A stretch of 64,000 nt of DNA, taken from Amphiura filiformis (Eukaryota; Echinodermata; Ophiuroidea; Amphilepidida; Amphiuridae). The position numbers and the translations under genes are program-made. The stretch is taken from positions 30,696,204 through 30,760,203 of the forward strand of contig NC_092640.1 of NCBI RefSeq assembly GCF_039555335.1, in the 5' to 3' direction. Below are positions 7,238 to 46,486 of this stretch, piece by piece. The notes beneath the pieces are model-generated. The model had not been told where the DNA came from and did no database searches. It saw only the letters and a list, made by a program, of their open reading frames with translations. Each line of letters starts with the position of its first letter. The first letter of the stretch is position 1.

Positions 7238-7238
7238 T

Positions 7239-9434: not shown

Positions 9435-9476
9435 ATGAGTGCCATGATGGCGTGGAGACTATCTTTCTTGCTAACA
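9435..9476 (+). CDS. Gene A exon 1 (signal peptide start)
   Basis: Encodes 14 codons, MSAMMAWRLSFLLT, followed by the donor GTAAGT. The start is supported by the matching exon of gene B (33810-33857), which shares the MSA..MAW core, the SFLLT end and the identical donor. Phase 0. Confidence 0.75.
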
Positions 9477-12400
9477 GTAAGTACCAATATGGCCACATAG
9501 CCTACTTATTGTCTGTAGGCCTACATGCTTTAATTCCTATGAATATTACTTTAGCTGCGATTTTAAATCATGAATTCGAGAACTTGTCCCGCGCCGGCAC
9601 ATTTCCTTGCTTTTTGTAGTTAGATAGTGTGCCGAGATTGCCGACCAGTATTTCGTTTATATTGTCTAGTTCCATAATTTATTTTGCAACACTATAAATT
9701 ATACTCAGTTATTATATTTTTTTGTGGCGAGCAATCGTTCCCGTGGCGTAGCCAAGAGGGAGAGGGGGCAAAGCTGCAAAGGGGGGGGGGGCGCATGTCG
9801 TTAAAGATAGGCTACATATTTTGTTACATACATAGGCCTACATGATACATGTAATGTTGTGGCGCTCATAAGTATGAGTAAATGAGAAATAACGTTTTGA
9901 TACTATATTCACCATGCTGATTCTACTTTCTCTGGTTTCTTGTATAAATTACAGGTCTACAGACTACACTCAATAAAAACATATACCTATTGGATAGGCC
10001 TATAATGTGCAAATACATGTGAATAAAAATATAATGCATAATTGTACATAGGCTACTCGTAAGTAGTCTGGCCTGTAACAGCAGCATGTAAAGTCTGCAC
10101 AAAAAGTAACTCAGCTGTTATAAATACGCCTATAGATTCAGAACTAATAATTGTTTTCACAATATTTCAGCATAGAGAGAAGCATGATTTATTTACACGC
10201 ATTTTGATACCCCATTCGTCAAATGTCGTTCAATATTAACAACACAGTAGTGCTTTTACAAAAAATACCCGAATTTAAAAGTTGCAGTTTACAGCGATCA
10301 ATGGTTATAATGCCAGCACTGTAAACACGTAAAGCCCGCCATTAGAGACCTTGCGGAATGAAGTTACTTTAACTTTAACTTTAACGTCTAGAGGATTATA
10401 GAGGATTATGTATTCAAAACCACTCTGCCATTAAAGCCGCTTGAAGTTAAAGTTAACGCGAGAATCTATAGTGTGCCGTAAATTATGATGAAATACGTCA
10501 TACTTTAGAACAATAGTTTGCCTATTTCCTCATAGACTACATAATTACCACTTATGTATTATCTAGTTAATAGACCAATTATTGGAAATCTAATTTGGTT
10601 TGGGTAAAAACATGCTACATGTTGCTGAAAATTACTGATTGAATTAAATCAAAATAAATTTTGTTCCAAACGTCACACTTGATATATAATTTTGTGTGTG
10701 CTCATGACGTACACCAAATCAGCTTGCGGAACCAAGTTTTTGGCTTGACTTCAACGCCAAGGGGATTAAGTTCCCGTAAAATGGTCTGGTTTTACTTGAG
10801 CCAGCAGTGTACGATACTTCTGGAAGAGTAAAGCAGGTGCATAACATTTTTATATATAACATGTCATAGGTTGTGCCTGGTAAGAGAGAGAGAGAGAGGA
10901 TAGGGAGGAGGAGAGGGAGGGCATTGGAAGTGGACAGGGAGGTGCTTTGCTGGGAGCCAGGGGGGGGGCGCCCCGTGGGACATCTTCTCTTCCTTCTTGA
11001 CCCTTCCCTTTTGGATGCTGGCCGCCGTGATATTTTACGCTTTTAGGCCCTTTTCTGCCATTTTAAGCCCATTTTGTAAAAACGTTTCCTTTGAGAATCG
11101 GCCCACGCCCTCCTAACAGAAAACCCTGACAAAATCACTGGGGAGGGGGAAACAGGAGTGCAGTGGGTAATTATAGGAGGTCAAGTTTGAGAGAGCGAGT
11201 ACAGATAAAGGGGGAGAAGGAGGGGAAAATAAGGAGAATGTAGGGAAGGGGAAATAGGAGGGGAAGGGGAGAGAGATTCAGAAGGAGGGGAAAGAAATAA
11301 AGAATATGTATTTCATTAGGCTTTGCGAAGTAAATTGGAATATGGAATTGACAAAGCTGACGAGCCTTTATTAAATAATATTATATATATATTGGCCTAT
11401 AACTATCGTAAGAATATTGATTGAAACGTATAGGGCCTAGCTAGTTTCAAAATAATATGATAAGGAGATTAAGGGTCGGTTCATAGTGAATATTCGAAGG
11501 CGAATATTCGGCTTCGAATACTTTTTGTGACGTCAAAATATATACGGCAACGAATAAAAACGGAGTTGAATGGGATTAAATATCGCGCAACTGATAGCGA
11601 GATACTATTGATTTATATGAAAGGCTCGAGGTCACCTAAATATCGTTCGACAAACGATGATTTCAAAAATCCCCAATGAAAATTAAGGAATCTGGAATGA
11701 GCATTTTGAGCGTTTTGACAGTATTTTTGTGGGACATGAGAGCACATCAGACATATCGAATTACATTATGAATACGAAGAATGTCTTTCTGATCAAATAA
11801 TTTTTTGAAATTCACGATATAATACAAATTTTATGACAAATTATTAAAATTTGATATTTTTCACATATTGATATATAACAGTCAACAGTAAATATTATAA
11901 ATCTAATGATGTTTTCTTAAAGTGTATGTAGCTGGGAGGAAAAGCCGACGATCAATTGAAAATTTTGCCCTTTCATATTGAAGATATGGATTTTTTTTCC
12001 CAAAAGACCTAATTTTTTGGTGTTTTTGGGAAAAATCCATATCTTCAATACGAAAGGTCAAAATTTTCAATTGATTGTCGGCTTTTCATCCCACCTACAT
12101 ACATGGCCGTTCCTAGGGATTTTGCCGCCATAGGCAATGCCCCTCCCTGCCGCCCCACCAAAGCATACCAAAAAGGGGGTTACCCCCTTGAAAACTCCTC
12201 AGTTTTGACCTATTTGTATACTGCCCACTACTGATTTCCTCAGTGGCGTAGATTTCTTTTGGACATTGGAGGGATGGGGTTGCCACGGAAAAATAAATCT
12301 TGAATTATAATGCGCGCGAAGCGCGTGAAAAATATTCCCATTTTTTAAGCTAAACTGTTGAAATGTGGTGCAAAAATGAAATAGATGCGCGCGAAGCGCG

Positions 12401-13130
12401 AAAAAAATTGCACCTTTGGGACTGAAATGGCCAAATAAGAGGTGAATTGGTCAGAAACCCACATACAGGCGTCAACATTGGGGGGGAGGGGATGATTGTA
12501 TGGAGCATCCTCCCCTGGCAAAGTATTGGGGGAATTTATCCCCCCCGGATCTACGCCTATCAGCCAATGAAAAAAGTATTCACCGGAAATATATTTGTGG
12601 GAGTTGAAACTATGCAGAACAACCAAAACCACGAGCGTTGGTACCCTATCATTGCGTGTTCTTTTAAAATAAATTCTTGTTTATTTCTATAATTTGTGAA
12701 TCAGACATTAAAACACACTAGCAATGTAGGCCTACACAAGTTCGGAACGCAACTTTCTATTTTTTGACGCGTATTTCGGTCGAATGCCAAAATTGATTGC
12801 TCAATGAATCATGAAATGAGAGCAATACTACTTTGATGATACCGATCTCAAGTGGATATCAGCCAATGAAAAAAGTATTCACCGGAAATATATTTGTGGG
12901 AGTTGAATTTTGTTGAACTCGACAGATATATATTTGGTGGGTCACCGTGGGTGGTCTCATATAACACTTGTGAGGGCTGTCATATTTGTCGTCGCTTCAA
13001 TCATATCTTATGATATTTATATATTTATTTATATATTTCGCTCCTATATTTTATAGTTGAGCACTGTATCTAGTGATGGTTTCACTATAATTTTTTACTA
13101 TATATTTATTTATATATTTATTTATATATT

Positions 13131-13177
<47 letters not shown>

Positions 13178-13182
13178 TATAT

Positions 13183-13217
<35 letters not shown>

Positions 13218-16200
13218 TATATTTATTTATTCATTTATTTATTCATTTATTTATTTATATATTTATTTATTTATTTATTTAATTATTTATGTATATATTG
13301 ACTTATTTATTGACTTATTTATTTATTTTTTATTTATTTATTTATCTATTGACTCATTCATGTCTTGATTTGCTTTGCAGTTGAAACCTACAAGAAGGTA
13401 CCGGTTACAGGCAGGTCGTAAATGCCCCGAAATGCAAATCTTTTTGACTCCTATTCAGGTCAGGGGCGTAACCAGACCTGACCTTCCGGGGGGGGGCAAG
13501 ATTGAAAAATTTCCCAATTTCTGATCAAAAGTTTTAGTATTTATGTTCGAGAGAAAGCTCGCTTGCCGCGAAGCGTTAAACGGGTGGAGTCGGTGGGGTC
13601 CAGGGGCAAAGCCCAGGCGGGGGTCAAGGGGGCTGAACGCCATGAAGCTCCTGGTTTTTGGCATATTAGAAAATATCAGTGTTTCAGAGTACAAATTTCA
13701 AAATGAAAGTAGTAGGCCTATAGATCTTCTTCTCTCTTTCTTTCCCTTTTCTCTTCTCCTTGAGTCCCTTCCCTTTTCTCTTCTCCCATCCCCTTTTCTT
13801 CCCTCTTTTTCTTTTCTTCTTTCCCTTTCTCTTCCCTCTTTCTTTTCCTTTTTCTCGTCTCCCTTCCCTTTTTCTCTTCTTTCCCCTTTCTCTTCCCTCT
13901 TTTTTCTTCCCTCTTTTTTTCTTCCCCTTTTCCCCTTCCCAAATTTTTACTCTTCTTCCAGGTTTGTTGTGTCCGGGGGCAGCTTGCACCCCCGGCCCCC
14001 ACTGGTTACGCCACTGCTCCTATTTAGACCCATTTATACAGACATTAAATCATGACAATAGTTCAATGGAGTTTACCTATTATGATTTTCGTTAAAGAAA
14101 TTCTCTAAATTTTGCTTACATTGGTCAACAGGCAATACTTGTTAACAGTCGGGCAACGCTGTGAATTGTAGAACTATATCTTTCTCCGGTTCATAGTTTT
14201 ATATTCGAAGCCGCATACATTTTGACGCCCAAAACGTATTCGAAGCCGAATATTCACCTTCGAATATTCACTTTGAACCAGCCTTAACGCTGGGTCCCGA
14301 CATAATCCATGTTGAGTGGTATCGCGAGTTCATTCATGTTTACTCAAACGAAGCTCTTAAGGTAGAGTCTTTTGTCTTGAAGTGGGACTAATAACCATTT
14401 GACTAAACAAAAGAGAGACATTTGGATGTAGTTGGTAACAAGCTCTTACACATGCCCTTCTTTTGAACGCACATTGATACACATGTCCCGAGTTTAAGCA
14501 ACAAGACGCTGTTGGTACAGAAACCAATCTGACGTTCGCGTTGAAGTGAATTTGAGCAAGAAATCCAATCAATATTTTTGAAGTTGCCGTTAAAGTTCCA
14601 GTAACTTCATTCCGCAAACTCTCTATTATCTTCGCGCTTACTTCAAATCAATACAAGTAACTGCAACTTTTAAATTGGGGTATTTTTCTTTCAAAACACT
14701 GCTGTATTGTCAATATTGAACAAAATTGGACAAATGGGGTATCAAAATGCGCGTAAATAAATCATCCTTCTTGTTATGTTAAAATATTGTGAAAACAATT
14801 ATTAGTTCTGAATCTATAGGCGTATTTATAACAGCTGAGTTACTTTTTGTGCAGTCTTTATTATGAAATAACACTGAGGTAATTGACTATACCATAGCCT
14901 ACTCCAACTGTAACGGTATAGAAAAGAATCAACATGACACCATATCCCATAGGCCTAGGCCCCTATGAGTGTTTGCTCAAACTGGAGCTCAGTCCGTACA
15001 GGAAGAGGCAATTACTGGGGTAGTAAAGACCGGTACAACGATGTCAGAGAAATGGAATACACCATGCTACACATACACCCACACCCCACCTCCATACCGA
15101 CACCACCCCCACATTCGCCCTCAACACAAAATATGAAAGTAATGTAGTTTTACCATTTTTCGGATTACCACTGAGCATGCTGAATAGGCCCCTAGGCTTA
15201 TTATATAATTTGCAGCTGAAACTAAAGAAAAACTCACAGCTGACCTCCTATACACATATCAATTTACATACATACCCCAACTCACCCTTATCATTCCATT
15301 ACATAAATATACCCACCCCACCCAATAAACACAGACCTACCAGTGGCGGCACCGGGCTTTTTTGAGGGGGGGGGGGGCAAAGTGAATTTTATGGGGGATC
15401 AACCAATTTTGTACAAAATTGCCGCAAAAGTTGATATTTGTTTTAGTTTCAGTTTATTTATTTTCCATATCAACAACGCAATGAAAAGATATATAATACA
15501 TAATGGAAGGATGACCAAAAAAAAAAAAGAGCAAAGCTCGAGAAGACTTTGACCACCCTGAAGATTTGTGTGATTGGGGGAATCAAACGGGGATGGGGGT
15601 CAAACGCACTTTTTCTTCCCAACAAAATAAATGCGCACGGTCATGTTTGGGCAGTTGTACAAATCTATTCATTTTTTCCAGCCATGGCTTAATTCTGAAT
15701 TGTCACCTAATTTGGGTGTACTTTGTCTTGGGTCCAATCTCTGTCATGGAAAATTTGCTATATCTTTCTAAATATAATAAGTGTTTGTTCTAGATTTGTG
15801 AAATAGCGTTTCATATTTGAAAGAACTAATGTTTAATTGCAACATTTCGAAACCACAAACCTAAACTGGGTGTTATGATGTACAAGATTGGGCTACGAGT
15901 ATGCATTTTACCAAGTTGGCAATAGGTATTTCCTTCATGTTGCCAATGCATGACTTTCTTTATTATACTCAAAAACGGATTTTATTATACTAGAAAGTTG
16001 TTTACGTGCATGTAGGCTCCTTCACAGCCGGTTTCTGTCGTGTATGTTTACGAATGAGCTACATGCAGACTGGGTTGCCAGGGACTACCAGGACAAAGTA
16101 TCGTTTTGACTATAACAATGTAAATATTAGCAAGATTTGGATTTGACCCCCTATCAGGTTAACTGATAACATAATTAATTGGAAATCTGAAATAAACACT

Positions 16201-19200
16201 TATTTTGTAAACAGGTGAAACTCTATGATTATTTATGGTTGGAAACTTAGGAAATTGCTGTTAATGAAATAAATAATATATTAAACATACATTTTGTTTT
16301 TTCAACGATGAAAATCCATTCACAAATAAGGTTTTTAGGAACCATTTGACATTAAACATTTTGAACAATTGCTCTATGAAAATAAGGGATATAATTGCAC
16401 CGCTGATCCAGGCTGCTGATAAGCTGTCAACAAGTGTGATCACTAATTCAACGATAATAATGAGCAATTATCTGACCAGAGGCACATTCTCCGATAAAGT
16501 GTCCAAAAAGCCAAATCTGTGTCGCCCATAGTGTCAAGTCGTATTCAGACTTGTTTCGTCAGAAAGAAATGACTTTTATTAATATAACTAATACTTCGGA
16601 GTTGCTTTCTAAAATGTGTGGGGCTGGAGGTTGTAACATGCCTAGAAAGTATAAAACAATAAAGCTGATTATGCATGTCCATTGTTTTCCTCCATGTCGC
16701 CAGCCAAGGTACGTTCCGTATAATGTGTCCCTGTTCGTTAAAGGTGAACCTCATTGAAAATAAAGTTATATATCAATGGAAAGCTTATGATATCAGGATA
16801 TTAAAAATAATTTTTTCCGATTTTTTTGATGGCCAATAAAGCTGAAAAATTAAAAAAATGAATGAATTTTTGGTCTTTTAAGGCGCCCAAAAGCACCCAA
16901 ATCAATCGTCTTTGACCTTGAGAATGCTCGTGACGTAAGCTCAGGGTTCGCAGTCACGTGATCCTACTCGGAAACATGTAAACAAGACTTGCTTCCTGTA
17001 CTTTGCAAGCTGCCCGGCAAGTCTGATTTTCAAAATAAAGCTTGAAATGAGAAGAATCTTCAAGTTGCTGATTCCTTCTATATATATTAGAAATAATAGA
17101 ATTATTGTCAACACGAAAATGTTCCGTAAATTTTTGACAAAATCAGTCATAACTGGCTGGGTATAACTGGGTAATTGAGTTTGAATTTCGCGCTGGGATC
17201 AATTCCATGCGCAAATGATTGCTGCTACCGTATACCGTTCATGTCATGGACTGAATAAACATGATCGAATAACAAATTAAATAACTTGTTTGTGACATTC
17301 CCTATTCTTGATTCATTTAAAAATATCTGATTTTTAAAAATATCGTCTTGTAGTAATCAAAAAATTAATTAAAAAACGCCGATTTCATCAAATCCAGCCC
17401 ATAAAGGTTTTCATATTATAACGCATTGCGGTAATACATTCTCCCGGTACATTCTTTCCACACAATCATAATCACGATTGAAAGAAACAGATACTTTATT
17501 ATAAAATAAATACGATTTAGGCTTAGTAGACCGTTATTTGATGGAATTCTGAAATCTGAATAAAATTAAAATATTGTCACTTGTGTCACGATTCTTTTAA
17601 TGATACTACCATCAGTGTACTGAAAAAGTGAAACATTCATGTATGGATTACCGAACACGATGCGTAAATTGCTGCTTTTATGCTGAAGAAATTACAGGCA
17701 GCCGCGCCGATCAAGGTGGGCAAACACAGCGACTCGCTTCGTCTCCGGTAGCACAAGTTCAAGTTGCGCCGTGTTTCAGCAGATTTGATCAATCGTTCCC
17801 TTATATTTGGAACATCTACCGGAATAAATGTTGCTGATGAAGTAGCAATAAGTTGGAAATATCAGAATGTGAATATCAAATCGGTCATTTTGTCTGCAAG
17901 CACAGTACGTACAGTCGCGGATACGGAACACTCGGCGACTGAGTGAGTTCACCCCGCCCCGTATGTATCTACGAGTTCGCCTATCATACATGACCGGTTG
18001 TAAAGTTAAGAAATAATTTAAAAATCCCGTACATGTACTTTATTCTATTCCTTCATTTTCTCATTGTGATAAGTTCATCTCAACTTGGTGTGACGATCTG
18101 AACTGGTAGCACTAGCAGTTATTTTTTGCAATCTGTTTTCATTCCGGTTCTTCGGCGAATCTTCGCTCTTTGTGCTTTACTGTAATATTCCCTGCATATC
18201 GTGGATGGCTTGGCCTATCCCAAATCACCCCGGCCAGCATGCAGCACTTTTCCCATTTTTTAATCCACACACTTTATTCAGGAACTTCATTCTTGATTTG
18301 ATCATGATGTTTCCTTCATGTTATTCTTATTTTATTGAAGATATTTTTCATGTTAAGTAAGTTGGCAATGACTGAGTTCGTGCATTGGGCCGATGCATGC
18401 CACAGTAATGCATGGACATTGTGTTTACAATCAAACCCGGAAGTAACTGTGTGTCCCCGTGTTGACGTCATCATCGAAAGCGCCCAATTTGAACGATTTC
18501 GTTTTGTAATTTAGGGGGTGCCAATATCCAATCTTTGCATGGAGATTATGTCTATCCTGGTGCGTTAGGCAAATAAAAATATTCTTTTCTGCTTCCTGGC
18601 ATCATAAGCTTTCCATTGATATATAACTTTATTTTCAATGAGGTTCACCTTTAAACATGCGCGCATAATAATGGATTATAGGTACTTTTCATTAGTGGTA
18701 TCATGCCCTAATAATAAAGTATAAAACATCACAACGCAAGTTATTAAATTTTTCCAACAGGTCTTTGAGACTATGTCGCCAAAATTGTTCACAGATACGT
18801 TACCATATTTCTAATGAACAACAATCTGTCAAAATAACTGGCTATATGAATGTTCCCATATGTTATGGATCAAGCAGGCTCTATAGTTATATTATATATG
18901 TGGTACATAACACAATCATGGTTTCAAAGTAAAAAAATCAGGTCTATTAATGGCAAAAAATCCTGACGTTACGTTCATGCGTTCACAGATACGTTACCTA
19001 AATTCTACTCCCCTCGGAAAAAACGCTGTGATAAATGAAGCCAAATACCATATCAGACTTTAGTACATTGGGTGATGACTGATCAAGTATGGGCATTAAG
19101 TCGGTAAGTTTTTACACTTGCACGATTAAGACAAAAGTGGGAAAGGGCTTCACAGATACATTACCACTGATACGTTACCCCCATGCGTACAAGTAATATT

Positions 19201-28923: not shown

Positions 28924-28959
28924 ATCCTGGGGGAGGGGCAGGAGGCAGACCCACTCCTC

Positions 28960-29285: not shown

Positions 29286-29302
29286 AGTTGCAGGGAATTA
29301 TT

Positions 29303-30152: not shown

Positions 30153-30159
30153 TTTAGTC

Positions 30160-30952: not shown

Positions 30953-30989
30953 TTACATACAAACTTTTATTTACAATACAAAAACACTC

Positions 30990-32424: not shown

Positions 32425-32639
32425 CTCACATAGTAATCCAGGGCCGACAGCAAGTTATTTCACTCAACTTGAATGAATTAAAAAAAAAATCCTTTATCTC
32501 ATGTATTTATAATCTCACTATAGATTTCTGTCTTGTTTGAATAATACGAATGAGGTGCTCTTTGAGAGAAGACGGTAACCATGGTAACGTTTATATCACC
32601 CCAAAACAACGATTACATGTTCACAATGAAGTAGACTTA

Positions 32640-32975
32640 ACAGTAAGGGTAGACGAGGTATTGTTGGTCGAAGCAGCCAAAAAAATCGATTTTCATTAGC
32701 TAAATCAATATATTATTGAAAAATGACACTTTGATGTTTTGCAAAAATTCATTCTGCAAATCTTATACTTTGAAAACTTGCTTGATTTATTGTTGTTAAT
32801 GACCCGGGTTATGTACGTTTTACTAAAGTGTTGTTGTTTCAGCCCTCTTTACAACATAACTCAAGAACCACAGAATTCTTCTTCTGATCAATGCAATTTT
32901 TGCCGAAGCTCACTACCATTCGCAAGATTCTGTGAACTACCAAATCGCAACAGTTTGAAATAGTTGCTAACCTTC
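32640..32975 (+). repeat. Interspersed repeat family R1, copy 2
   Basis: From 'tattgttggtcgaagcagcc' to 'tttgaaatagttgctaacct'. It gives the uninterrupted order of segments that are split at 38930-39140 and 40060-40150 by an inserted element. Confidence 0.8.
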
Positions 32976-33809
32976 AGCCCGGGCCTTAAGCGTATTCAAG
33001 ATTCAAATAATTGTAATTGAAGAATGATTTTCCAAAACATTTTGACCACTGCTCGTATGACGGGAATTAATAAATTGAAATGAAATTAAACAGATCATGT
33101 GACAGTTTCGTTGATATATATTATAGGTAAATACTATTTCGTGTTAGAACCATACGGTAGTATATGATACAATTATGTTGGCATAATAATGTGACGTCCC
33201 TTAAACATAAAACAGTAAAACTTCGATTTTTCGGCATTTCCCTTTGCGTGTGGTACTCCATTTCGTCATTTCTGTATATTTTCAATACATTGACGGCAGA
33301 ACTCTTTGCGATAACCTTAAACAGAAATTAATTTCAACACTAAACCGATCAGTAGCCTATTATATTTACTAAATCTTGTCTTATCAAGAAGTAAAATCTA
33401 CATTCCCCTCAATGAAACAATTAATACGGACGGAATTAAATAAATTATGACTGAGAAGGAAGTCAAAAACACAAAAAACGTCACAATTCTACCTATTGTG
33501 TTTTATGATTGACCTTGTGCAAGTTCATGTCTGACTGAAAATAAAGGTATTATCCGTACCAGCGCATGCATTGTGCGATTTAACTTGCATTAGCGAGTGA
33601 CGAGCGATCGGTTTTAACAAGTGAATTAGACCACGGCCTTCTGGCGTAAAAATATAAAATTTATAAACCATTGGATAGTTAATAATCGCTCGCCATAAGC
33701 GACTTGGATTATGAAGTTAGCTATAAGAATAAGGAAATGCATGTTCTACACGTTGATAAATACAAATTAGTGTTTGTATTTTGGTAAATATTATGATTAT
33801 ATTGTACGT

Positions 33810-33857
33810 ATGAGTGCTGTGATGGCATGGGGAATTGGGTTATCTTTCTTGCTAACA
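33810..33857 (+). CDS. Gene B exon 1 (signal peptide start)
   Basis: Encodes MSAVMAWGIGLSFLLT followed by the donor GTAAGT. Two codons longer than gene A exon 1 and otherwise matching, which supports the start choice in both genes. Phase 0. Confidence 0.75.
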
Positions 33858-36800
33858 GTAAGTACAATTTGATTTCTATTTTTAAATTGTAGACTTGGTT
33901 AACATGGATAAACACTGAAAATAGCTTTCAGACATTGGTTTATACCATTTTGACTTAAATATTCGCATGTTTTAATATATGTACAAAGTGCCTATGCACA
34001 TGCACAGGAGTTGATCGTCATTACTGCATTAGACTTGGTTAACAAACATTGAAAATGGCTTTCAGATTATGGCTTATACCATTTTGACTTAAATATTCGC
34101 ATGTTTTTTATGTAGATTATGCCTGTGCACATGCACAGGAGTTGGTCGTCATTAATGCATGTAATGTCGCCAAGGAGATAGTTGTGTTATATGCATTGCA
34201 TATAATGTTATGACGCTCATATTATTATGTTCACTGAAGAGGAAGTATTATTTTATTTTATGTGTCGCATCATGCATATACATCAAGTGTACCTTTTATT
34301 CCGAATAATGTCCACCATGATCATTATAGGTAAACATTAGAGGAAAACATGTTAATTGGGGCCTTATATTGGATCTTATGCTCAAGTACATGGGAATAAA
34401 ACATGCATTTTTGTATATAATTATAAGTACGGCGACCATACATAATGAACCAATGTAGTGTTATAGGCATGTTAGGCCGTATAAAATTAATGTTTTTGTT
34501 CTCGTCCCCTCCCTCCTCAATTTCTGTGATTTGTCAGATTTTTTTTTTTTTTTTTTAGATTTTTCAATTATTTTAGACTTTGGAATGATCTATGAATTTT
34601 TCATACATATAAATAAGTTTATTAGAGAACAAGGATCACTTCCAAGTCTTTTTGTGGTACTCTAGGGGGTTTATCCCTCAGAATCTCACATTTGAAAAAA
34701 AAAAAGTGCCTCATCGTTTCTTCAAGCACTGTTGGAAAAGACCGAAAACTACTGAAAATGGTGATTTTACATTGGAAAAAAAAAAAAAAAAAAAAACCTC
34801 CCTCCCTCATCAATTCATGAAAATCCTCTGGACGAGAACCAAAATATTAATTTTATACGGCCTTATACTAAACAAGAAATGTCTTTAAAAAAGACAATGC
34901 CTCCAAGATACCAGTGGGCCGCTTTTGTTATTAGTTAAGGAGACACTTATAATGCTAGCTTTAAGGTAACGCTATTGGATATAGATTTTTGTCTGATTGA
35001 AATATGTGAGCCCATTCTCTCCTGATTACAAAACTGAAATTTTTTATTTTAATCGGATATTCGGTTACCAAAATATGGCCTGTCAAAATGGCACTTAACC
35101 AAGAAGTTGGCAACAACTTTTTATTTTTGTTATGCAATGTTGTCAGGTAGGCCTTATTTTCTAATTATAGGCCTATATGCAAGAATTATACAAAGTAAAA
35201 TGTTCAGATCGGCTACAAAATAAAATGGATGCCTTTGGCAAATTTCCATTTGCATAATTAATTAGGGCCCTAATCAACTTTTCTAATAAGTGGCCCTTAT
35301 TAATTATGCAAATTGAAATTTGCCAAAACGCAACCGTAATTTTGTAGTATAGTGTGTGTTCTACCCATGTACCATGCCTCAGTACCATAGCTCTTTTAAT
35401 TGTAGGCCTATCTGATTATCTGAAATCTTTACTTTGCATAATTCATGCATGAATTAGAAAATCATCTGGCAACTGGACTTGTCAAAAATATAGAAAATAA
35501 AAAGAAAGTTGTTCCCAATTTTTTTTGGTTTCGCGCCATTTTGACAGGCCATATCTCAAGAACCGAATGTAATCTACAGGGCATAAGTTTTAACATACTA
35601 TAGTATTATTTAAATAGAAAGAAAATCTAAATTTGTGCATTAGCCAATAGGGCCACGGTCACCTAAAGCCATCTTGCAATCTTGCAGATAATTCTGATGT
35701 ATGAAATAAGACCTTCAAACTTTCAGATATGAAGAGTTCCAGGTGCAGGCAGCCGTTTCTGTTTTTTAAATATAGGCCTAAGTTGTATCAAGAGTCATTT
35801 CTTGTGGATTTTTTGACTGAAAATTACAATTGTAACGTTTCAGAGTAACACATTTTTGTATCAGATTCTTTTATGCTTGTTTATTATATTTTGTATTCAG
35901 GACTAAAATAATATTAATATTATTATATTTAGGGGAGTCTTTTCATAGGCCATTACTTTTTTTTGTATATGTGTAATTGAATAAAAATCAAAAACATTAT
36001 TGTTTTGTTTTCTTTCCTTCATTTGTGCTTTGTTTTGCATCGAAAGGGCCAATATCAACACCTTGTTTGTAAGAAGTATTGTGTGGGAAAGATGATTCTT
36101 GCATTTTATTTTATAAACAACAAGCAAATTTCTCAGTCATAGTCTTGAAACGGTCATGGGTATATGCATGCAAAAATATTGCAACAGTACTCAGTAGAAT
36201 GTAAAAAACTGACATAGGCCTACATACCACCAACATAACCAACCACGTATGGGAATTGGGGAAGCAAATACTTTAAAACGAATTATTCCGAATTATATCA
36301 ACGCAATAAAATTGCAATACTTTAGTACAGCAATGAAGCTGGGCGGAAATTAGAGTACTTGTCAGAATATAAATTTGTACAATCGGCCTACATGCCGGGC
36401 AATGTGCGGCATTTTAGGTGTCAATTTCAAATCAAACTACCTCCTGGCGGAGGCAGAAAAAGACAGAAATGAAGTCAAACAAATATGACATCACATCACA
36501 TGGAATGTTTGTTCAAACGGCCGCTCCGTGCGGTTTCTCTGGGTATAGTGTAGACTGCTTTGCATTGCCTTTTGAGAAACAATTTACACCACTATAGGCC
36601 TATGCCATTCCGGTTTCAGGATGGGAATTGTTCTCGTTCTGAATTATTATGAGATTGAAGAATTTCCAAAAGGGGATAGGGGCCTACCAATTAGGTATAG
36701 AGAAGACTGGTGTCACTACAATAATGTCAGAGGAATGGAACCACGAACCCCCGGCACGAACCACACGCATCACACAAACTCCCCCCCCCCCCCCCACACA

Positions 36801-39800
36801 CCCCCTCCACACAACACACTCTCATATACACCCCTACGTATTCAAACCACGCACCAATTATGTAAGCTGTATCTAGTTTGACCAGTTTCCGGATATGCCG
36901 TAGATTTATAGCAGAACTATGAAAACATTCATCTGACAGACATCCTATTTTCAACAATCACAAACGAACATCCCCTACCCTTCCAACCACCCACATACCA
37001 TATGCTCTTATACCCACCCAACACCCCACGCATCTACTTTGCCCATCCCTCACAAACATATCGATCACGCCCCATACATTCCCCACACATACACCCCTTC
37101 AAATAAACATACATAATCACTTTTTACACACACAAGATTGCAAGCAATGTAGTTTTACCATTTTCCGGAATACCACTGAGTAAAAGATTTACTCTAAGGA
37201 AGCACATCGGCCATCAAACACCCACAAACACACCCCTCCTATACACCCACCCCTCACTCATCCTATTTATAAACACGCCCCAACACACGAGTGCACCCCA
37301 TCCCACCACTCACCGCCACGCCCACACAAGCACTCAATCACGACACAAGCAAGCTGTGCAAGCAATGTAGTTTTACCATTTCCTGGATTACCGCCGAGTA
37401 ATAGATTTGCAACTGTTTATAAGGAACAATACATACCTTAACACATCCCACTCCCCGAAGTTCCTCCCATACACACCCCCACCCATCCGGCCATCCACCC
37501 TGTTCCTGCTATCAAACGTGGATGTTGTGGATTATACTGAGGACGTAACTTTCACTATCTGACCGTGGACACGCCTGGTCAAACTGCAGCGAATCGTGTA
37601 CCTTTTACATATGGGTATTACATAGCCTAAAATACATATTTTTACGCAATCAGCAATTCATTGTAGCTATAAAACAAAGCAAGGACGGTTGCAGGTGCGT
37701 CCTCGTTTGATAGTTAAGAAGAAGCAGATACGTGTCCTCGTTTTGTACCTAATTAAATGCCCTGCAGTTATTGCTACCATTACAGGAATACCATTTCATA
37801 TACTAATCATACTGCAGTTACTGTCCGTTTTCCTATACACAATACACAGTGCTCTTTCCCATTGACGCGTGACCTCTACAAATAGCCTACGTTAAAAGCA
37901 TGGGGATATGCCTAGTTAACGTCGCTGTGTGAAAAATAACCGGCCAATATTAAAAGTACTCTTCTAAAATTCTAGACAATATAGTTTTGTAACATGTCCT
38001 AAATTTTTAGCTAATTTAGATGTTTGGAAATATGCGTACTTTGGTGTTTTAGGAAGGATATGTAAACGACAGATAACACCAAAAAATATGAAGAAATTAT
38101 TTCCAAACCGTGTTAAGTCTGCAAACCACCATGTTTCTCATTTTCAAGAACGCTGGTTAACAATAAGCACGTATTGTCTCATTTCGTAAACAAAGACCAC
38201 ACACAATTGTTCTCTAGCGCTCGCTTTATAATCGTTCACCCAACTGAAAGTATAATCCCAGCTCATTGCTCCATTGTACGTGTAAAGCAGACACATATGT
38301 TGTGTGTATTTAACCAGAGAAGATATGATTTAATCAGTTGAGCTGTTTTCAATGAGTGTTATCTTGGTTTAATAGCTTTTAATGGGGTTTAAGTCCTGCA
38401 AAGGTCGAGTTGAATTCTACTGTAGACATGACTGCATCATGTAAACTCTTCTATACAACATTACACACAATCTGTTAATTGGAAGCTAAACATAATAAAG
38501 CATACATACAACTACGCCAACAACAATAACAAAACTGGGGAAATGCTCCATGATGCTACCCGTAGCCCTTAATTGAAATAATTTAAAATAAATAATCAAT
38601 TAAGTAACCAATTGGAGACTGCTTGCTATCTGAGGTTCTAGAGGGTCCAAACAAGAATTATACAGTAAGAAATAGCAAATAAGTAGGGATTTTGTGAAAA
38701 TCTACTGCCTGGGCGAAGCATGCTTCGATTTTACTGATATTCCAGCATAATAGTAGTATGTACTCAAGTAAAATTCTCTGAGAGTTCCAAATCGAGGGGA
38801 AAAAATGTTTTTTTGCCACACCCTATTGTCCATGTGACCCCGAAGTTCTTGCTACGCCCCTGAACCTCTGTCTCCTTATTTTTTTATCAAACAGAAATGC
38901 ATTTAAACAGCTATTGAATACAAACTCTTAATGGTAGACTAGGTATTGTTGGTTGAAGCAGCCACAAAATCGGTTTTCATTATCTAAATCAATATATTAT
39001 TGAAAAATAACACTTTGATGTTTTGCAATAGTTTATTCTACAAATCATATACTTTGAAAACTTGCTTAATTTATTGTTGTTAATGAGTTATGTACGTTTT
39101 GCAAAAGTGTTGCTGTTTCAGCCCTCTTTACAACAAGAACCATAGCACCTATAAAAAACTATATCTGTTAATATATTTCGTCGGCAGAATGCTACACTAT
39201 CGTAAGTGCAGTTTGGACAGTTTTACATGAGGAGCATATTTGGGTTTTGCGTAGCCGTTTGTTTCCAAGTAGCCATAAAATGACATGGGAATGTAAAGCA
39301 ATTTAATTTTGATAATTATATACTACAATAATTGGTATTAAAGTTAATAAATAGATTACTGATTAAAATGTCGTAAGTGCCACATACGATAGTGTTGCAC
39401 TCAAATAGAAGTTAGTGTAGAGTGCAACACTATCGTATGTGCCACTTACGATAGTGTTGCACTCAAATAGAAATTAGTGTAGAGTGCAACACTATCGTAT
39501 GTGCCACATACATGACATACGATAGTGTAGCATTGACTGCTAAATTAGGATATTCGTAATATCGGCTCAAATTTCCAGTATCTGTCATTTTATGTTACTT
39601 AACAACTGTTAATTTATTTCGGCACATAATATTTACAATAGAAAGACACCTTTTGCCCTAATGTTATCTCTCAAGATGTATTACTGAATCTAAGAATAAA
39701 AACACTGGATTTGTCGTCTCAACTAGGCAGCTTGGTCCAAGAAAGTAGCGTATGTGGCACATACGAGGGTCTTGCAGCAGATGGAAAAACAAAATTAGCG

Positions 39801-42800
39801 TGCACGACTATCGTAAGTGGCACATACGATAGTGTTGTACGCATTAATAAAATTGCAAATGCACTTGCGATATTTTATTTTATTAACTAAAAAATAATTA
39901 AGCAATTTTGAAACTTAAAACCTGGTTTAAAATTTTGTTTTTATAATAAATTATATGGCCTTCCATAATTCGTCAACATCTCAAATTGGACAAAAATGTC
40001 ACTTACGATAGTGTAGCACTTTGCCGACGATTTGAATTCTATATACACACTCGCTATACAATGATCAATGCAATTTTTGCTAAAGCTCACTACCATTCGC
40101 AAGATGCTGTGAACTACCAAATCGCAACAGTTTGAAATAGTTGCTAACCTTAACTCCTCGTATATATCTATTTCATTTGCTTGTTTTGTTTCAGGTGCTC
40201 TACTTAGCCGATCACACAGAAGCCTTGACAATAGACCCAACCGTCCCCATGTGTAACTGTCAACCACCACCATGTCTTACTGTAAATGGAAAGCCCATTA
40301 TATTTCCCGGAAAATTCAATGAAACAAATAGCATAGACAAAGAAGTCATTCCAGTCAACCCTGTAGTGCAGATTTCATGCCCTGTAATTGATCCGCTTGT
40401 TTCATTCGGCCCACAACACGAAAGCTCGTACTTCTTTCACCGTAGTGTTTGTGTTAAACGCTCGTTGGATGAGTTACAAGAAACAAACTGGGTTGCTACT
40501 GATGAGTTGGACAATGGGAGACAATACTGTACAGCATTGAATGCTGATCTTTTTGGTAAGTTTCTTGAATTGGACTATTCCTGTTGAAATCCATACACCC
40601 CCTATGGAAGACATGTCCTTAATCTTCCACACAGGGAGTGTGGTTTTCAAACGGAGTTATCTCAATTGGGGACTCCAAATGGGGTTACCTGAATTGGTGA
40701 CTTCATTTGAAATCTACACCACCTGTTTGGGAGATTAAGGTCATGGTCTTCCATAGGGGGTTATGGATAGCAACTGGAATAGCCCAATGCCAATTCATTG
40801 TGTTGGATTTTCCCCGTAAAATTAAAATGACAACAAATAATTAACAACAATTAAACATGTCTTCAACAATAAAAAAAAATACAATGATAGTTGTATAACC
40901 ACATTGTTAAAAACAACATGTACAGTATAGAGGTTGTGCAATAATTATGAGCCCCCGGGGGTAAAATTTCGAAACGGCTCGCCAAAATCGCTTGCCCCCT
41001 CTCGGTCCGATAAAAATCACTTGCCCCCCCTTCTCGGCCCGCCAAAAATCTTTGCCCCCCCCTCCTTGCACATGCCAAATTTTTGGGATCCCAATTTGCA
41101 ATAAACGGTCTATATACATGTTGCGAGCGCAGCGAGCAGGAACATTTGCGTACGGTTTTCCTAAGCCTTTTTAGAGCGTTTTGTTTAAAAGGCGCCCCAA
41201 GAATGTGTGCCAAAAATCACTTGCCCCCCCTCTCGACTTGCCAAAAATTGTTTGCACCCCTTTCGGCTCGCCAAAAATGTCTTCCCCCTTCCATTTTACC
41301 CTCCCCAGGGCTCATAATTATTGCACAGCCCCTATAAACCCAATGCTCCTTAAAGTACATCATATCATAATTATTTCATTTATAGAGGTAATCAACCCTT
41401 TCTCTCACCCTTTCTGCATAGACGTCCACTTCCAACAAGCTATCTGCATGTTGTTTTAAAATTCAGCCAAAATATATTCTGAACAAAGTATAGAATTTAG
41501 ATGTCTATTTAAGTTTTTCAGCTCACAATACTAAAATCATAAAAAGTAATATAAATAGTAAAACATCCAATTAAAATGGTTAACTCAAAATTTGTTTAGT
41601 CTGTGGATAAAGGATTTGTACATATTTTTGATTCGAACTGAAACCAACTTTGTTAAATTTTCCTTTTAAGGACCACCAACAACAATGACATCAACGTCAT
41701 ATGGCATGACAACGACATCAGCAACGTCAACAGATGACGATACATCAACAACAGACGACATAGCTGACGACACCAAGAAGAGTACTAGTACAACGGAACA
41801 AAGTACCAATATGACTACCAAGCCGCGCTGTGGCTCGGAAAATGGTAATAAGGAAGATTGAAATCTTCCTTCGTTGTTTGTTGTCAGTCTTTTCGCTCTC
41901 TTGTTTTTGTTTTATGCTGTCATCTACAAGTACTACATTTGTAAAAGCAAGTAATTTTGATATTCACTGACCTGACCGCATATATACAAAAACTCCTTAA
42001 AAGAAGGTTGGAAAGTTTTTCAAGCGTCTATATCTCAGATTATTTATGACATGTTCATATCGTGCTGCATATGGACAGCTAATTTATTCCCCTTTACAAT
42101 GACGCCACAATTGAAAGAAGCACCCCTTTTCACGACAGAGTACACCTCTTGTGAATGTAGTGGGGTCTCAAACAGAATGTGCAAAATTGACCATTATTCT
42201 GTGCAGCAAGTTGCAATCTGGGACCTTATGCAATCCTCAAGATGACAATGTAACGTTTTCCCCCACAGAACCAGGGTAATCAACGACTACCTACAGAATA
42301 ATAATATGCATGATACGGGAGTAGTCTAGATACAATGGAATGGCTTGCCATCAGCCCAGACTGTGACCTCAACCCGATTGAACACTTGTGGGACCAGCTT
42401 TGCTGCCTATTGCAATCACATTGAATGACCTGCGACGAATCCGGGTTGATTCATGGAATGTCATCCCACAGTAACGTGTGACCAGGCTGGTGAGCAGAAT
42501 GAGGAGGTGCCAGGCTGTCTTTCCCAAATTCCCACCCGCTATTGAGGTTATGTAGTTGTTCGAGCACAGAACAATGGGCAATTTGGCACATTCTGTTTGA
42601 GCCCCCCCCCCCCAATTCACAAGACATGTACTCAGCCGTGATAAAGGTGATTGTTTCAAATGCGGTGTCATAGTAAAGGAAAATAATTTTGTTGTCCATC
42701 GATATACAATACCGTATGAACATGTCACGAATAATCTGAGATATAGATGATTGAAAAAACTTTGCAAACTTTAATTTGTATTTCTAACAATTTCTTATAA

Positions 42801-45800
42801 AAATAACATAAACTATGACTATTTTTCTCGTGTATGAAATAGGTTAATAATCAATATCTCAGTACGCTTGTATTAATTTTGTACAATTTCTCGAGCAACA
42901 AGTGATACGCATTTATTAACCCTATGAAAACTACCTGCCGATTGGCCAAAAATAAGTGTTCATTATCCATTGGCCCAATCAGCAACATTGTTAGAATAAT
43001 TTCAACACGCAAAAAAATTGGGGTGAATTATTTGCAAAGCTCCATTCTGATTGGTGACTAAAGTGAAGATATCATGTAATTGACTAATCAGAGGCAATGT
43101 TAGATCGGCAGGTGAATGAAGTTGATATAGAAGTCGAATTAAATTTGGCATTGCATTTCGCAAACTCCCCTGCACACCGACACCGCCTGGCTAATAATTA
43201 TTTGGTGCAGAAGGGACACTAAAATGAATACACGGGATCGATACACGTGAATTGCTATGCACGATTTTGATATCAGACGAAAATCTTCTGATACCGGGTT
43301 AGAAAATGATGAATATCTCCCGTCATGATTTTTTTCTCAAGAAACCAGATTTGGTCTCATAAACTTGGAAATACGTGTTGAACAGATATGATAGTCGCTA
43401 GAATGCGCTTTGAAAATTGGCCGTGCGCTTTGAACTCAAAATTTGACCATTTTATATTGCGTTGGTCCTGTTATGGACTACAGCGTGCAGCGTGTAGTAC
43501 AGCTGCACTCACTGTAGGCAGTATAAAAGTCGATGACCATTGACCTCAATGGGGTATACAAGCTTAATCACGCACAACCAAGATCGATTACCCGGCTATT
43601 GTGAGTAGCCTTAGTTATGTCCCTCGACTAATTATTAGTTTAAAAGAGCTTTAAAGGTTTGAACCAAATGGCTAATCGTGGCTGTGGATTTAACCTACCA
43701 TGGCGATTCCTGCCATGAAGATATAGGGTCGATGACACTGTGCCCTGTCTTCAGAGTACATGGGGACATTTGGTTGAAAATTCAATACAAATTGTATGTT
43801 GATTATAATGAGCATTTCAAAGGTTATCTGAATATAGATTATTGGATTGTTGTGAGACTCAGAGGATATGATTTCAGCTCTTTGTTACAAGTATGAATTA
43901 AATGTAGCCCTATTTAGCACACATTCTTATTTAGTGTTTAACATGAAAATCCTTGAGTAGTATGTCATTGGTGATATTCCTCCGGGGATATTCCCATCTG
44001 GTTAGTTGTGCCATACACAAAATTAGGCCTACTAGCATTAGGCCTAGTACTTGTCAATGTAAAATTATGGAACATGATCTTTATCCATGGCGTTGTCTTG
44101 TTTAAGACAGTTCTTATTTCTGAATGAAGCGTTTCGATGTTTGCTATTCATGTTACTACGATATAGTGATTTATATTGTGTTTTCTAAAATACAAATGTT
44201 AAGACTTATTTTCTTGATTTCTCCTTAGATATAGGGAGTACCTGTGTTGATAAAGGTGCACTTTCTACCCGATCACGATGCAGAAACTGTGGCTGGTTGG
44301 TTCTCTTGTTTCTTCTGCTTCTGCCTCTGTCTTATGCGGCTTGGCGTTATCGCCATAAAATAAGAATTTGGATTCGAAGGTAGGCCTATATAAATAACAC
44401 TACTAATGTAATTTTAACAGAATTAAGCGATTCTATTTTACAAAGAAGGATATGATTTATATACAAAATTAAAATAACAATCTCTTGCAAAAATAGCCAG
44501 TAGGTAACACCCGGGGTAACACTCCTTTTCAAGACTGGTCCAAAAAGACTTTTCAAAACTGAGGTCATGACTACGGTATGTTTCTGTCCGATTGTAAGAT
44601 GTTTGAGAGACTGATCCACAATCAATTGTACTTCCACCAGAATTATAATTAACCTTATTTCTTCCAACCAATCTGGCTTCAGACCTAAACACCTGCTCAT
44701 CAGTTAAAAACCCTTAATTATATCCTCAAAAATGGCCATCTTATTGGAAGCATTTTTATCATGTTTACAGATCTCGAGAAGGCCTTTGATACGGTCAGCA
44801 ATTTCATTTTTCTCAATATACTAAAATTATTTGGTATCACAGGTCTGGGTCTAGATTGGCCATGTTGGTAAGAGCCAAGAGCATGAAGGTAGTATCTAGT
44901 AGAGAAGGAGTGAGCTCGCGTTAAGCTCATTACGTAAGTCCTATTGTAATCACAATAGGCCTATATAGAGACAGATAAACTTTTGATCTAATGATCATCG
45001 CCGACAATTTTTGCAATGACTCCGTCTCATGAGGGTTCAAATCACGTATGCGCAAAACATGTATTATGGATGCGCATACATTCACTTAGCTGTTGAAATT
45101 GATTATTCATATAATATGCTTTTTTAAGGACGGATAAAATTGTTTTAACCACTGTTTTAAAAATACAAAGATCTTATTAAAAATAAATTGCTCATTCATA
45201 AGTTCAGAAATGCTCCCATCAAACGAGGTGTATCTCAATGTTGCCCGGTACTGCCCGGGGTGGTCCGAGTTTATTTGTCTACCCAAAACTTACACAATTG
45301 TTCCTCCCCGAGGTTTCAAAATTAACCGCGTCCTGAGCCCTCTTTTTAACTAGCCAATGAAAGAGATATAAAGCATAATGTGCATCATTTTCATCAAGTT
45401 AGAATGACTTATGCTGTTTTAACATATTTAGAGCGCATACAATTGTGCGATCATGCATGAAGATCATAAGTGATAATCGTGTTACATAATCAAAACGTTG
45501 ACTGGAAACCTCAAAGGCGCGGCAATTATGATTGTACAATAGAATGCGTGCCAGCTTTCTCCTTTACTACCTGCTACTACCTTCATGGTAAGAGCCATAG
45601 TCAGGTGAAATCGGAACGGGGAAATGTAAAACCCACCTTTTTTTGTTATCTTTATTTCCTTATCAGGGCAAATTTTTCATACAATAGATCAATGAATGTC
45701 GTTTTGAGCAACACTAAATGTTGTTTAAATCCGCCCATTGTTGTAGTCAGGATATTTGGGGGGGGGAGGGTGACGACTTACGACTTTAAAGGCAAGGATT

Positions 45801-46486
45801 TGACGAAAATTTGCAGTGTTCTCGGTTGTTGTTTTAATAAAAAACGAAAGCACTGTGCAAATACTCAGGGTACGATAGAAACAGCATGCATCAGTATACT
45901 TATCGGGGTATATAATGCTAAAGGAACAAACTATACGCAGTGCCCTAAAAGAGTGTAAAGACGTGGGCATGTTCTATATAAATAGATGAAGTATATAGTA
46001 TATAATTTCATTGTTGAATATAATCATGATTATTGCAGTTATTACAAACCATCTGATGATGATCCAGAAGCGAATTGCAGCCCAAGTGCAGCCTCGTCTC
46101 TTGACGCATCAAAGAATACCGGTACTGCAGCCACGCAAAAAGAAAAGGATGATCCAAAGAATGCTGCTGGAACCTATAATAATCCTGCATATGAGGAGAA
46201 TGAGGTGGGAAAAGTTAATGATAAAACAAAGGAAAACAAAAAGAACAGTGTGGATGAACAAACGAATAACAATGATGATAAAAAAGATTCAAAATCGGAC
46301 CAAAGAAATAATACAAAGACAGAAAGTAATAATGGTATGGAAGAAAATTCAAAACCAAAAGAAGGAACATTTAAAACGGCTGCAATTCAAAAGGCAGCTG
46401 CGAATGATAGTGGTAAAAATAGAAAGCATTCGGGAAACAGAAAGAGTGGAACAGGACAGGGCAAATTGAAGACTCTTCCCGATTGA
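33810..46486 (+). CDS. Gene B: type I membrane protein, tandem paralogue of gene A (5 exons)
   Basis: Exons 33810-33857, 40195-40555, 41671-41844, 44229-44379 and 46039-46486 join through GT-AG borders with phases 0, 1, 1, 2 and stay open to TGA at 46484-46486, giving 393 aa. Order: signal peptide (1-26, cleavage expected after HTEA), ectodomain with six Cys (MCNC, PPPC, ISCP, SVCVK, RQYC) and an NET sequon, Thr/Ser/Asp stalk (137-194), CRNCG, membrane span about 217-233, RHKIRIWIRR, and a charged 150-residue tail with NPAYEE near residues 293-298 and a Lys/Asn-rich end. NPxY motifs in membrane-protein tails commonly serve clathrin adaptors or PTB proteins, so regulated endocytosis or signalling is possible but inferred. 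The family is not recognised. Confidence 0.75.
33890..34160. repeat. Tandem duplication, about 135-bp unit, two copies
   Basis: 'gacttggttaaca' to 'cacatgcacaggagtt' at 33891-34029 recurs at 34030-34160, with 'gacttaaatattcgcatgtt' in both. Lies just inside gene B intron 1. Confidence 0.85.
34940..35700. mobile_element. Foldback element with nested palindrome
   Basis: The left part near 35045-35110 ('tcggttaccaaaatatggcc', 'tgtcaaaatggc') is the complement of 35540-35580 ('gccattttgacaggccatat', 'ctcaagaaccga'). Inside, 35225-35275 and 35290-35335 form a second inverted pair ('tttgcataattaatta' and 'taattatgcaaa'). Borders are approximate. Confidence 0.55.
35924..36560 (+). repeat. Remnant copy of the gene A 5' region, first exon missing
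   Basis: Matches 6858-7237, 8264-8300 and 9225-9430 in order and orientation, without the LINE that splits the gene A version. Where gene A exon 1 would follow, the match decays near 36590 and no MSA..MAW exon is present; AC-rich intron sequence homologous to 14940-15335 follows instead. It lies in gene B intron 1 and looks like a relic of a third gene copy. Confidence 0.7.
36595..37510. repeat. AC-rich degenerate repeat region
   Basis: C/A-rich DNA with a C-run at 36781-36795 and repeated 'gcaagcaatgtagttttacc' words near 37140 and 37355, each followed by a 'taccactgagta' or 'taccgccgagta' word. Related to 14940-15335. His/Pro/Thr-rich frames are artefacts of composition. Confidence 0.65.
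37808..38441 (-). repeat. Interspersed repeat family R2, inverted copy
   Basis: The reverse complement of the family at 20738-21606, from 'actgcagttactgtccgttt' to 'agacatgactgcatcat', lacking the middle part. In gene B intron 1. Confidence 0.8.
38930..39140 (+). repeat. Family R1, copy 3, left part
   Basis: Aligns to 32650-32855. The right part lies at 40060-40150, after the inserted TIR element at 39178-40030. Confidence 0.75.
39178..40030. mobile_element. 853-bp TIR element with its terminal word scattered inside
   Basis: The 31-bp ends TCGTCGGCAGAATGCTACAC (39178) and GTGTAGCACTTTGCCGACGA (to 40030) are inverted repeats, extended inward by TATCGTAAGTG/CACTTACGATA. The core word ACTATCGTAxGTG or its complement recurs near 39370, 39400, 39425, 39445, 39490, 39520, 39745 and 39815. 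The insertion splits an R1 repeat that is intact at 32640-32975. No transposase frame. Confidence 0.85.
40195..40555 (+). CDS. Gene B exon 2 (ectodomain)
   Basis: Acceptor TTTTGTTTCAG, donor GTAAGT, 361 nt, phase 0 to 1. Shares with gene A exon 2 the blocks LADHTEA, CNC, QPPPC, SVCVK, LDE/DK and DELDNGRQYC, and the six Cys. It has an extra segment of about 23 residues containing FNETNS. Confidence 0.85.
40565..40790. mobile_element. MITE related to 22790-25010
   Basis: Begins 'ggactattcctgttgaaatc' and ends 'agcaactggaatagccca', with 'cttccacacagggagtgtgg' inside. It starts just after gene B exon 2, whereas the gene A relative is in intron 3. Confidence 0.6.
40932..41333. mobile_element. TIR element with CGCCAAAAAT word repeats
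   Basis: TGTGCAATAATTATGAGCCC at the left pairs with GGGCTCATAATTATTGCACA at the right. 'gccaaaaatcacttgccccc' and variants recur about six times inside. A single end remains near 63033-63065. Confidence 0.75.
41671..41844 (+). CDS. Gene B exon 3 (Thr/Ser stalk)
   Basis: Acceptor TCCTTTTAAG, donor GTAATA, 174 nt, phase 1-1. Encodes 58 residues rich in Thr, Ser and Asp with SYGMTTTS, matching SYSMTTTS in gene A, one NMT sequon and a C-terminal CGSEN. Shorter and more acidic than the gene A stalk. Confidence 0.8.
42005..42770 (+). mobile_element. Tc1/mariner-derived foldback remnant
   Basis: The ends 'ctatatctcagattattta' and 'aataatctgagatatag' are inverted, and similarity of the arms extends about 190 bp. 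At 42335-42425 the + strand reads MEWLAISPDCDLNPIEHLWD, the hallmark stretch around the last catalytic region of Tc1/mariner transposases; the frame stops soon after and the rest is lost. Non-functional, in gene B intron 3. Confidence 0.75.
42938..43115. mobile_element. Small MITE
   Basis: 'acctgccgattggcc' at the left and 'gatcggcaggt' at the right are inverted; 'attggcccaatcagcaacat' and 'tgactaatcagaggcaatgt' pair partly inside. Non-coding. Confidence 0.55.
43790..44130 (+). repeat. Displaced copy of gene A intron-1 end, before gene B exon 4
   Basis: Aligns with 19800-20410, the stretch that directly precedes exon 2 of gene A: 'tctgaatatagatt', 'tgttacaagtatgaattaaa', 'gttagttgtgcca' and 'ccatggcgttgtctt' occur in order in both. 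No exon 2 follows here; exon 4 follows about 100 bp later. This indicates a rearranged duplication. Confidence 0.7.
44229..44379 (+). CDS. Gene B exon 4 (transmembrane)
   Basis: Acceptor TTTCTCCTTAG, donor GTAGGC, 151 nt, phase 1 to 2. Encodes CRNCGWLVLLFLLLL, then a short polar break and RHKIRIWIRR. The CRNCGWLVLLF and HKIRIWIRR blocks are identical to gene A. Confidence 0.85.
44640..45250 (+). pseudogene. LINE reverse-transcriptase remnant
   Basis: Broken reading frames contain NQSGFRPKH (about 44665), FTDLEKAFDTV (about 44763) and APIKRGVSQCCPV (about 45210), which correspond to conserved blocks of non-LTR reverse transcriptases; the last replaces the usual GVPQGS. Frameshifts and stops between the blocks show it is dead. 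In gene B intron 4. Confidence 0.75.
46039..46486 (+). CDS. Gene B exon 5 (cytoplasmic tail and stop)
   Basis: Acceptor TTATTGCAG; enters in phase 2 and ends at TGA. Encodes 148 residues after the split Ser, starting YYKPSDDDPE and containing TYNNPAYEENEVG. The rest is Lys/Asn/Asp/Gln-rich and probably disordered, ending in a basic stretch. Unrelated to the gene A tail by eye. Frames on the other registers at 46008-46470 are shadows. Confidence 0.75.

Follow-up and report, generated by a model that had tools for sequence, protein, structure and literature searches.

Two genes, here called A and B, lie in tandem on the + strand of a 64,000-nucleotide stretch of Amphiura filiformis DNA (the window; all coordinates below refer to it). 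Each was modeled with five exons: A spans positions 9435–27649 and encodes 300 amino acids, and B spans 33810–46486 and encodes 393. All eight introns are of the GT-AG type, the intron phases are 0, 1, 1, and 2 in both genes, and the spliced frames contain neither internal stop codons nor frameshifts. An earlier examination of the same DNA, made from the letters alone (the sequence-only reading), had assigned these identical phases, and the uninterrupted GT-AG splicing bears them out. Its boundaries were also exact: 9435 is the first base of the A start codon, and 46486 is the last base of the B stop codon. It had, however, counted five junctions per gene, and the models give four. No Rfam or tRNA genes were found in the window.

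The two genes have the same layout. In A, exon 1 (9435–9476, +) carries the start codon and the first part of the signal peptide (MSAMMAWRLSFLLT) and is followed by a phase-0 intron. Exon 2 (20421–20712, +) completes the signal peptide and encodes a Cys-rich head with seven cysteines; it is homologous to exon 2 of B and ends at a phase-1 intron. The Thr/Ser stalk (66% T+S) is encoded by exon 3 (22360–22593, +), which is 234 nt long and symmetrical (phase 1-1). Exon 4 (25671–25800, +) supplies the juxtamembrane cysteines, the membrane span, and a basic inner flank, and it precedes a phase-2 intron. Exon 5 (27445–27649, +), the least certain of the set, encodes an acidic tail with the C-terminus ETAI and the stop codon. 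In B, the start codon and the first part of the signal peptide (MSAVMAWGIGLSFLLT) come from exon 1 (33810–33857, +), again with a phase-0 intron; the end of the signal peptide and a head with six cysteines come from exon 2 (40195–40555, +), before a phase-1 intron; the stalk (48% T+S) from the 174-nt, symmetrical 1-1 exon 3 (41671–41844, +); the juxtamembrane cysteines, span, and basic inner flank from exon 4 (44229–44379, +), before a phase-2 intron; and a 149-residue hydrophilic tail containing NPAY, with the stop codon, from exon 5 (46039–46486, +).

Do these exons represent genuine, related genes? When the window was compared with itself, the matches between A and B in gene order were 9434–9484 with 33809–33865 (the exon 1 region, 80.7% identical at the DNA level over 57 aligned positions), 20398–20506 with 40170–40277, 20586–20696 with 40441–40554, 22381–22456 with 41677–41749, and 25697–25846 with 44276–44430. 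These order-keeping matches are confined to exons and their immediate edges; the remaining A/B matches are inverted or out of order. At the protein level, the alignment scores of the heads and of the membrane spans were each reached by none of 2000 shuffles, and that of the stalks by five of 2000. The gaps in exon 2 are telling: in a plain nucleotide alignment, all seven are multiples of three (9, 42, 9, 24, and 3 nt in one row; 3 and 15 nt in the other), which corroborates the length change in the ectodomain that had been noticed earlier. The single A/B gap in exon 4 is 21 nt long.

We estimated dN/dS by NG86 counting with our own script, using 1000 bootstrap resamples. Signal peptide, head, and span, 148 codons in all, gave a ratio of 0.47 (bootstrap 95% interval 0.29–0.76), and 0.1% of the resamples were at or above 1. 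The head alone gave 0.45 (0.24–0.83; 0.3% of resamples at or above 1), and the stalk gave 0.66. The A and B heads are thus under net purifying selection, and they lack the excess of replacements that strong diversifying selection would predict. For exon 4 alone the ratio was 0.82, with a low dS of 0.31; silent sites, too, are alike in this exon, so that gene conversion or a constraint of another kind may have acted there, and the near-identity of the spans may be due in part to such conversion instead of to selection at the protein level. The dS of about 0.5 indicates that the pair is old and not allelic, and it rules out an allelic duplication or an assembly artefact. The coding status of A and B is supported by the dN/dS of 0.47, the in-frame gaps of exon 2, and the ordered, exon-limited homology. 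Codon-position composition, judged against the window's 257 stop-to-stop frames of at least 60 codons (a background that includes the frames holding these exons), did not distinguish either head from the other open frames; the stalks and tails stood out, the composition of B exon 5 being like that of coding sequence. From the features of the sequence, A and B are very likely a genuine tandem pair of unrecognized membrane-protein genes, and we presume that they are transcribed.

The heads comprise approximately 86–110 residues. The six cysteines ascribed to the ectodomain by the sequence-only reading are indeed common to A and B, in the pattern CxC, PPPC, I[ST]C, SVC, QYC; A, however, has a seventh (C108). 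Successive cysteines are separated by 1, 5, 17, 12, 25, and 8 residues in A and by 1, 4, 34, 23, and 25 residues in B. The last two common cysteines are therefore 25 residues apart in both proteins, and the two preceding intervals differ (17 and 12 vs. 34 and 23), so that the length change falls mainly in the central part of the head; short gaps occur near both ends. Glycosylation sequons are present as previously described; those outside the membrane are at residues 35, 85, 117, and 189 of A and 58 and 183 of B, with none visibly at an equivalent position in the two proteins. AlphaFold2, given two-sequence alignments of both heads, returned mean pLDDT values of 32.5 and 37.1 and no usable fold.

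The stalk of A contains 31 threonines and 21 serines in 79 residues, and that of B contains 19 threonines and nine serines in 58. An in-frame, 15-bp tandem repeat occupies positions 22467–22524 of the A stalk exon. Because the exon is symmetrical (1-1), it could be skipped or lengthened without damage to the frame. Between stalk and span, the proteins have four juxtamembrane cysteines each (187, 195, 200, and 203 in A; 190, 200, 212, and 215 in B); the CRNC pair of the “CRNCG membrane span” reported earlier is not the whole of this cysteine complement. Hydropathy analysis revealed two hydrophobic segments per protein: the N-terminal one and a second, CGWLVLLFL... (best 19-residue windows 203–221 in A and 215–233 in B). 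The latter is followed in both proteins by RHKIRIWIR. By the positive-inside rule, a basic flank resides inside the cell; this arrangement would put the N-terminal part outside, i.e., a type I, head-out topology.

The tails as modeled have no detectable homology: their best local alignment score, 34, was reached by 1514 of 2000 shuffles. We considered whether a visible NNP match might betray homologous tails, and rejected this idea because the match did not beat the shuffles at either of two gap costs (1514 and 1265 of 2000). This difference between the tails is a new observation that goes beyond the sequence-only reading. The A tail has 68 residues and the PDZ-type C-terminus ETAI, an ending of a type found in 2.8% of shuffles of that tail; the 149-residue B tail harbors NPAY, and NPxY occurred in 2.5% of B-tail shuffles. 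Both motifs are short, and we regard them as suggestive only. The YxN in the B tail is expected in 44% of shuffles, and the ITIM consensus [SIVL]xYxx[ILV] is not in either tail as modeled. With respect to the 257 frames of the window, the A tail falls within the most acidic 1.2% and the B tail within the most acidic 1.9%; the least hydrophobic 2% of frames includes both.

The last exons are our weakest assignments, that of A above all. The acceptor chosen for A (27445) ranks 14th by frame length among the 402 AG acceptors at 25830–33700 and second among the 42 whose pyrimidine tract is good. For B, no frame behind the 386 AG acceptors scanned at 44410–52000 is longer than the one at 46039 (149 codons), but this acceptor has pyrimidines at only nine of 16 positions and falls outside the 37 with a good tract. 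The second-longest B frame (147 codons) begins at a poor acceptor site at 45517, and a competing acceptor, at 45667, combines 13 of 16 pyrimidines with a 97-codon frame. The divergence of the tails could therefore owe something to incorrectly chosen last exons.

The ectodomain could not be assigned to a family by the sequence-only reading, which proposed a profile search; profile and sequence searches returned no credible match in Pfam, NCBIfam, PHROGs, or the PDB. For Pfam, both full proteins, both heads, and five exon pieces were searched at E up to 10; PFF1_TM (E 7.6) and Glyco_hydro_59M (E 0.2) fell below the cut-off and were judged to be chance matches. NCBIfam yielded nothing for the heads or the A tail and, for the B tail, two matches far below the cut-off (best E 0.18). 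PHROGs yielded nothing for either head. The heads found no credible match in the PDB by sequence or by profile, and the weak sequence matches (best E 0.38) were attributed to chance. The head alignment produced 30 pattern matches in viral contigs and 29 in prokaryotic genome contigs, and the span alignment produced 44 in viral contigs; none was confirmed. No relative of the B head was found in phages or plasmids, nor of the B span in plasmids. Since the collections other than Pfam and the PDB contain no animal proteins, absence from them is no sign that relatives are rare. Among the papers listed in literature searches for this family or an equivalent, none fitted. The earlier description of tandem, mucin-stalked type I membrane proteins that match none of the families searched is thus supported as far as these tools reach.

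It had also been proposed that further copies be sought. This was done within the window by tblastn with A and B, and no additional head or span emerged there: the matches fell on the genes' own and each other's exons, and the best match elsewhere was of low complexity (E 0.006). The introns of B nonetheless contain displaced pieces of A's surroundings. Positions 35922–36465 (+), inside B intron 1, duplicate stretches that lie upstream of A exon 1 (6855–7240 and 9226–9350), and 43898–44118, inside B intron 3, copies sequence that precedes A exon 2 (in A intron 1). These displaced copies imply more than a simple duplication of two genes; B may be a chimera that combines two earlier copies, and the arrangement hints at an additional copy, lost or fused.

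Several other elements of the window deserve description. A 288-nt direct repeat (1106–1393 and 6570–6857; 100% identical, 5.5 kb apart) suggests a recent duplication or a young mobile element. An inverted repeat of 217 nt in A intron 3 (22944–23160 and 23578–23794), whose arms are 92% complementary and separated by 417 nt, has the appearance of a foldback or hairpin element. There are 29 copies of the palindrome TAGGCCTA in the window, against 0.56 expected in shuffles, and a dinucleotide model puts the excess at 53-fold; among the sites are 44381–44388, 5208–5215, 44024–44031, and 35168–35175. An excess of this kind is reminiscent of echinoderms or hemichordates; none of the papers listed in a literature search on it was relevant. 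Eight of the 29 sites can be compared through repeats within the window. At the site at 44381, in B, the paralogous A sequence has a plain TA (a clean 6-bp gap); those at 44024, 5208, and 35168 are covered by gaps of 5, 7, and 9; those at 7157 and 36215, which form one pair, are present in both copies; and at 22086 and 44039 substitutions are the better fit. A GGCC flanked by a duplicated TA would be in keeping with a transposon-excision footprint or a tiny insertion.

Other open frames were scrutinized as well. The 331-codon frame at 63007–63999 (+), which is open at the end of the window, matches Pfam Sulfotransfer_2 (PF03567; E 9.5e-43, profile positions 2–252 of 252) and is probably part of a carbohydrate sulfotransferase gene, apparently a large last exon; a sequence search of the PDB with it, at E up to 0.001, found nothing. 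A frame at 7845–8129 (-), with the end APGLWNNLPITIR...FKKLLKSHLF, has no Pfam match; we take this end to resemble the C-terminal part of a reverse transcriptase from a non-LTR retrotransposon. Ten ORFs picked from a list of 108, other than those of A and B, gave no hit in Pfam when E values up to 0.1 were allowed.

What might these proteins do? We lean toward the view that A and B are old tandem paralogues that encode receptors or adhesion molecules of type I topology, with a common head and different intracellular outputs; a receptor or adhesion function is what we would infer from their architecture. An O-glycosylated Thr/Ser stalk, together with the short four-Cys segment, would project a disulfide-stabilized head from the membrane, and this head would probably bind an extracellular ligand. 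The tail would transmit or anchor inside the cell: the short, acidic tail of A might attach to a scaffold through its PDZ-ligand-type end, and the NPxY of the long B tail might recruit a PTB adaptor or serve as an endocytosis signal. Because head and span were kept similar and the tails differ, the pair most likely would read similar ligands into different outputs. A role in self/non-self recognition, which had been raised in the sequence-only reading, is unsupported.

Other explanations must be weighed. A and B could be structural or mucosal coat proteins (adhesion molecules or mucins) in which the stalk glycans matter most, the head is a spacer or a homophilic adhesion module, and the tails do not signal. 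The high Thr/Ser content of the stalks, the symmetrical 1-1 exons of 234 and 174 nt whose length is free to change, and the 15-bp repeat in A all accord with this idea, which we find possible but somewhat unlikely: conservation is stronger in the head than in the stalk (dN/dS 0.45 vs. 0.66), and a coat protein has no need of long hydrophilic tails. We rate as unlikely the notion that the head is a strongly diverged Ig-like domain, in which case A and B would be mucin-stalked, distantly related IgSF receptors. Both heads do contain a hydrophobic-x-hydrophobic-x-Cys followed by D-x-G-x-x-x-Cys, a combination found in 0.1% (A) and 0.2% (B) of shuffles. This motif, however, is a loosened one that was chosen after the sequence had been seen; the canonical D-x-G-x-Y-x-C is in neither head, no Pfam Ig family matched at E up to 10, and there was no PDB profile match.

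The locus might instead be one complex gene whose A and B exons can be mixed, e.g., by joining A exons 1–4 to the last exon of B. The common strand and matching phases would permit this, the last exon of A is the weakest, and pieces from upstream of A and from the region before A exon 2 lie in B introns 1 and 3, respectively. Each unit, though, has a separate start exon and a complete series of well-framed exons, and we regard such mixing as distinctly doubtful. Least credible to us, indeed very improbable, is that A, B, or both are duplicates in decay (pseudogenes) or chance open frames. The presence in the introns of repeats, some of them inverted, and of rearranged flanks, the heads' undistinguished codon-position composition, and the weak acceptors of the last exons would be expected of such sequences, but they must be set against the lack of any stop or frameshift, exon-2 gaps that are all in frame, and a dN/dS below 1.

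Beyond our favored reading of paralogous receptors or adhesion molecules lies a bolder version of it, which we offer as a quite improbable conjecture: A and B could belong to an undescribed paired-receptor family, perhaps of marine invertebrates, with a new Cys-stabilized head, a mucin stalk of variable length, and tandem duplicates that retained head and span but exchanged their whole tails, such that one kind of ligand leads to alternative outputs. Such a family would be analogous to the vertebrate paired receptors and to the tunicate fester system, having evolved from an unrelated head. The surface-receptor repertoires of invertebrates are poorly catalogued, and recognition proteins are able to escape profile searches; the compact pair, with unlike tails and a head that escaped all the profile libraries searched, supplies a definite probe for searching eukaryotic genomes, and a paired-receptor idea that can be tested. 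Should it prove to belong to a widespread or polymorphic cluster, the locus would be a candidate for immunity or recognition; should it be a single pair, it would represent an ordinary orphan duplication.

How do A and B compare with known systems? The sialomucins CD34 and podocalyxin combine a mucin region, a Cys-bonded globular part, and a PDZ-type C-terminus such as that of A. In these proteins the mucin region lies on the N-terminal side of the globular part, whereas the head is outermost in A and B, which also have no Pfam match. A similar layout is found in the TIM family, whose members lie side by side in the genome. TIM proteins are described as built of a six-Cys IgV head, a mucin region, a span, and a tail (PMC4913284, PMC5372657), and A and B likewise have a signal peptide, a small six-Cys head, a mucin region, one span, and a tail in type I order. 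The mucin-like stalk, single span, and type I topology are TIM-like by composition and hydropathy only. No Ig family was found in Pfam at E up to 10 with the full proteins or the heads, which is a weak negative if the domain is very diverged, and the heads matched no TIM or other Ig chain in the PDB at E up to 10. WFND, described as the phosphatidylserine-binding motif of TIM (PMC4913284), is absent from A and B; so is AE[DE]NIY, the tail tyrosine motif described for TIM1, and TIM4 is described as having no tail tyrosine motif (PMC4913284, PMC5372657). As judged from sequence, then, A and B resemble TIM in layout but lack these three features.

The fester proteins and fester co-receptors of the Botryllus fuhc locus offer a different kind of parallel. 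They have been described as adjoining membrane proteins whose partners are unlike in signaling output, with alternative splicing, in the fester families, of the exons between head and membrane span (PMC12065747). The co-receptors carry Ig and sushi domains together with ITIM or hemITAM motifs, whereas Pfam detected no such domain in A or B and no ITIM was found. The domains thus differ, and the likeness would reside in the logic: as proposed here, neighboring receptors with different outputs.
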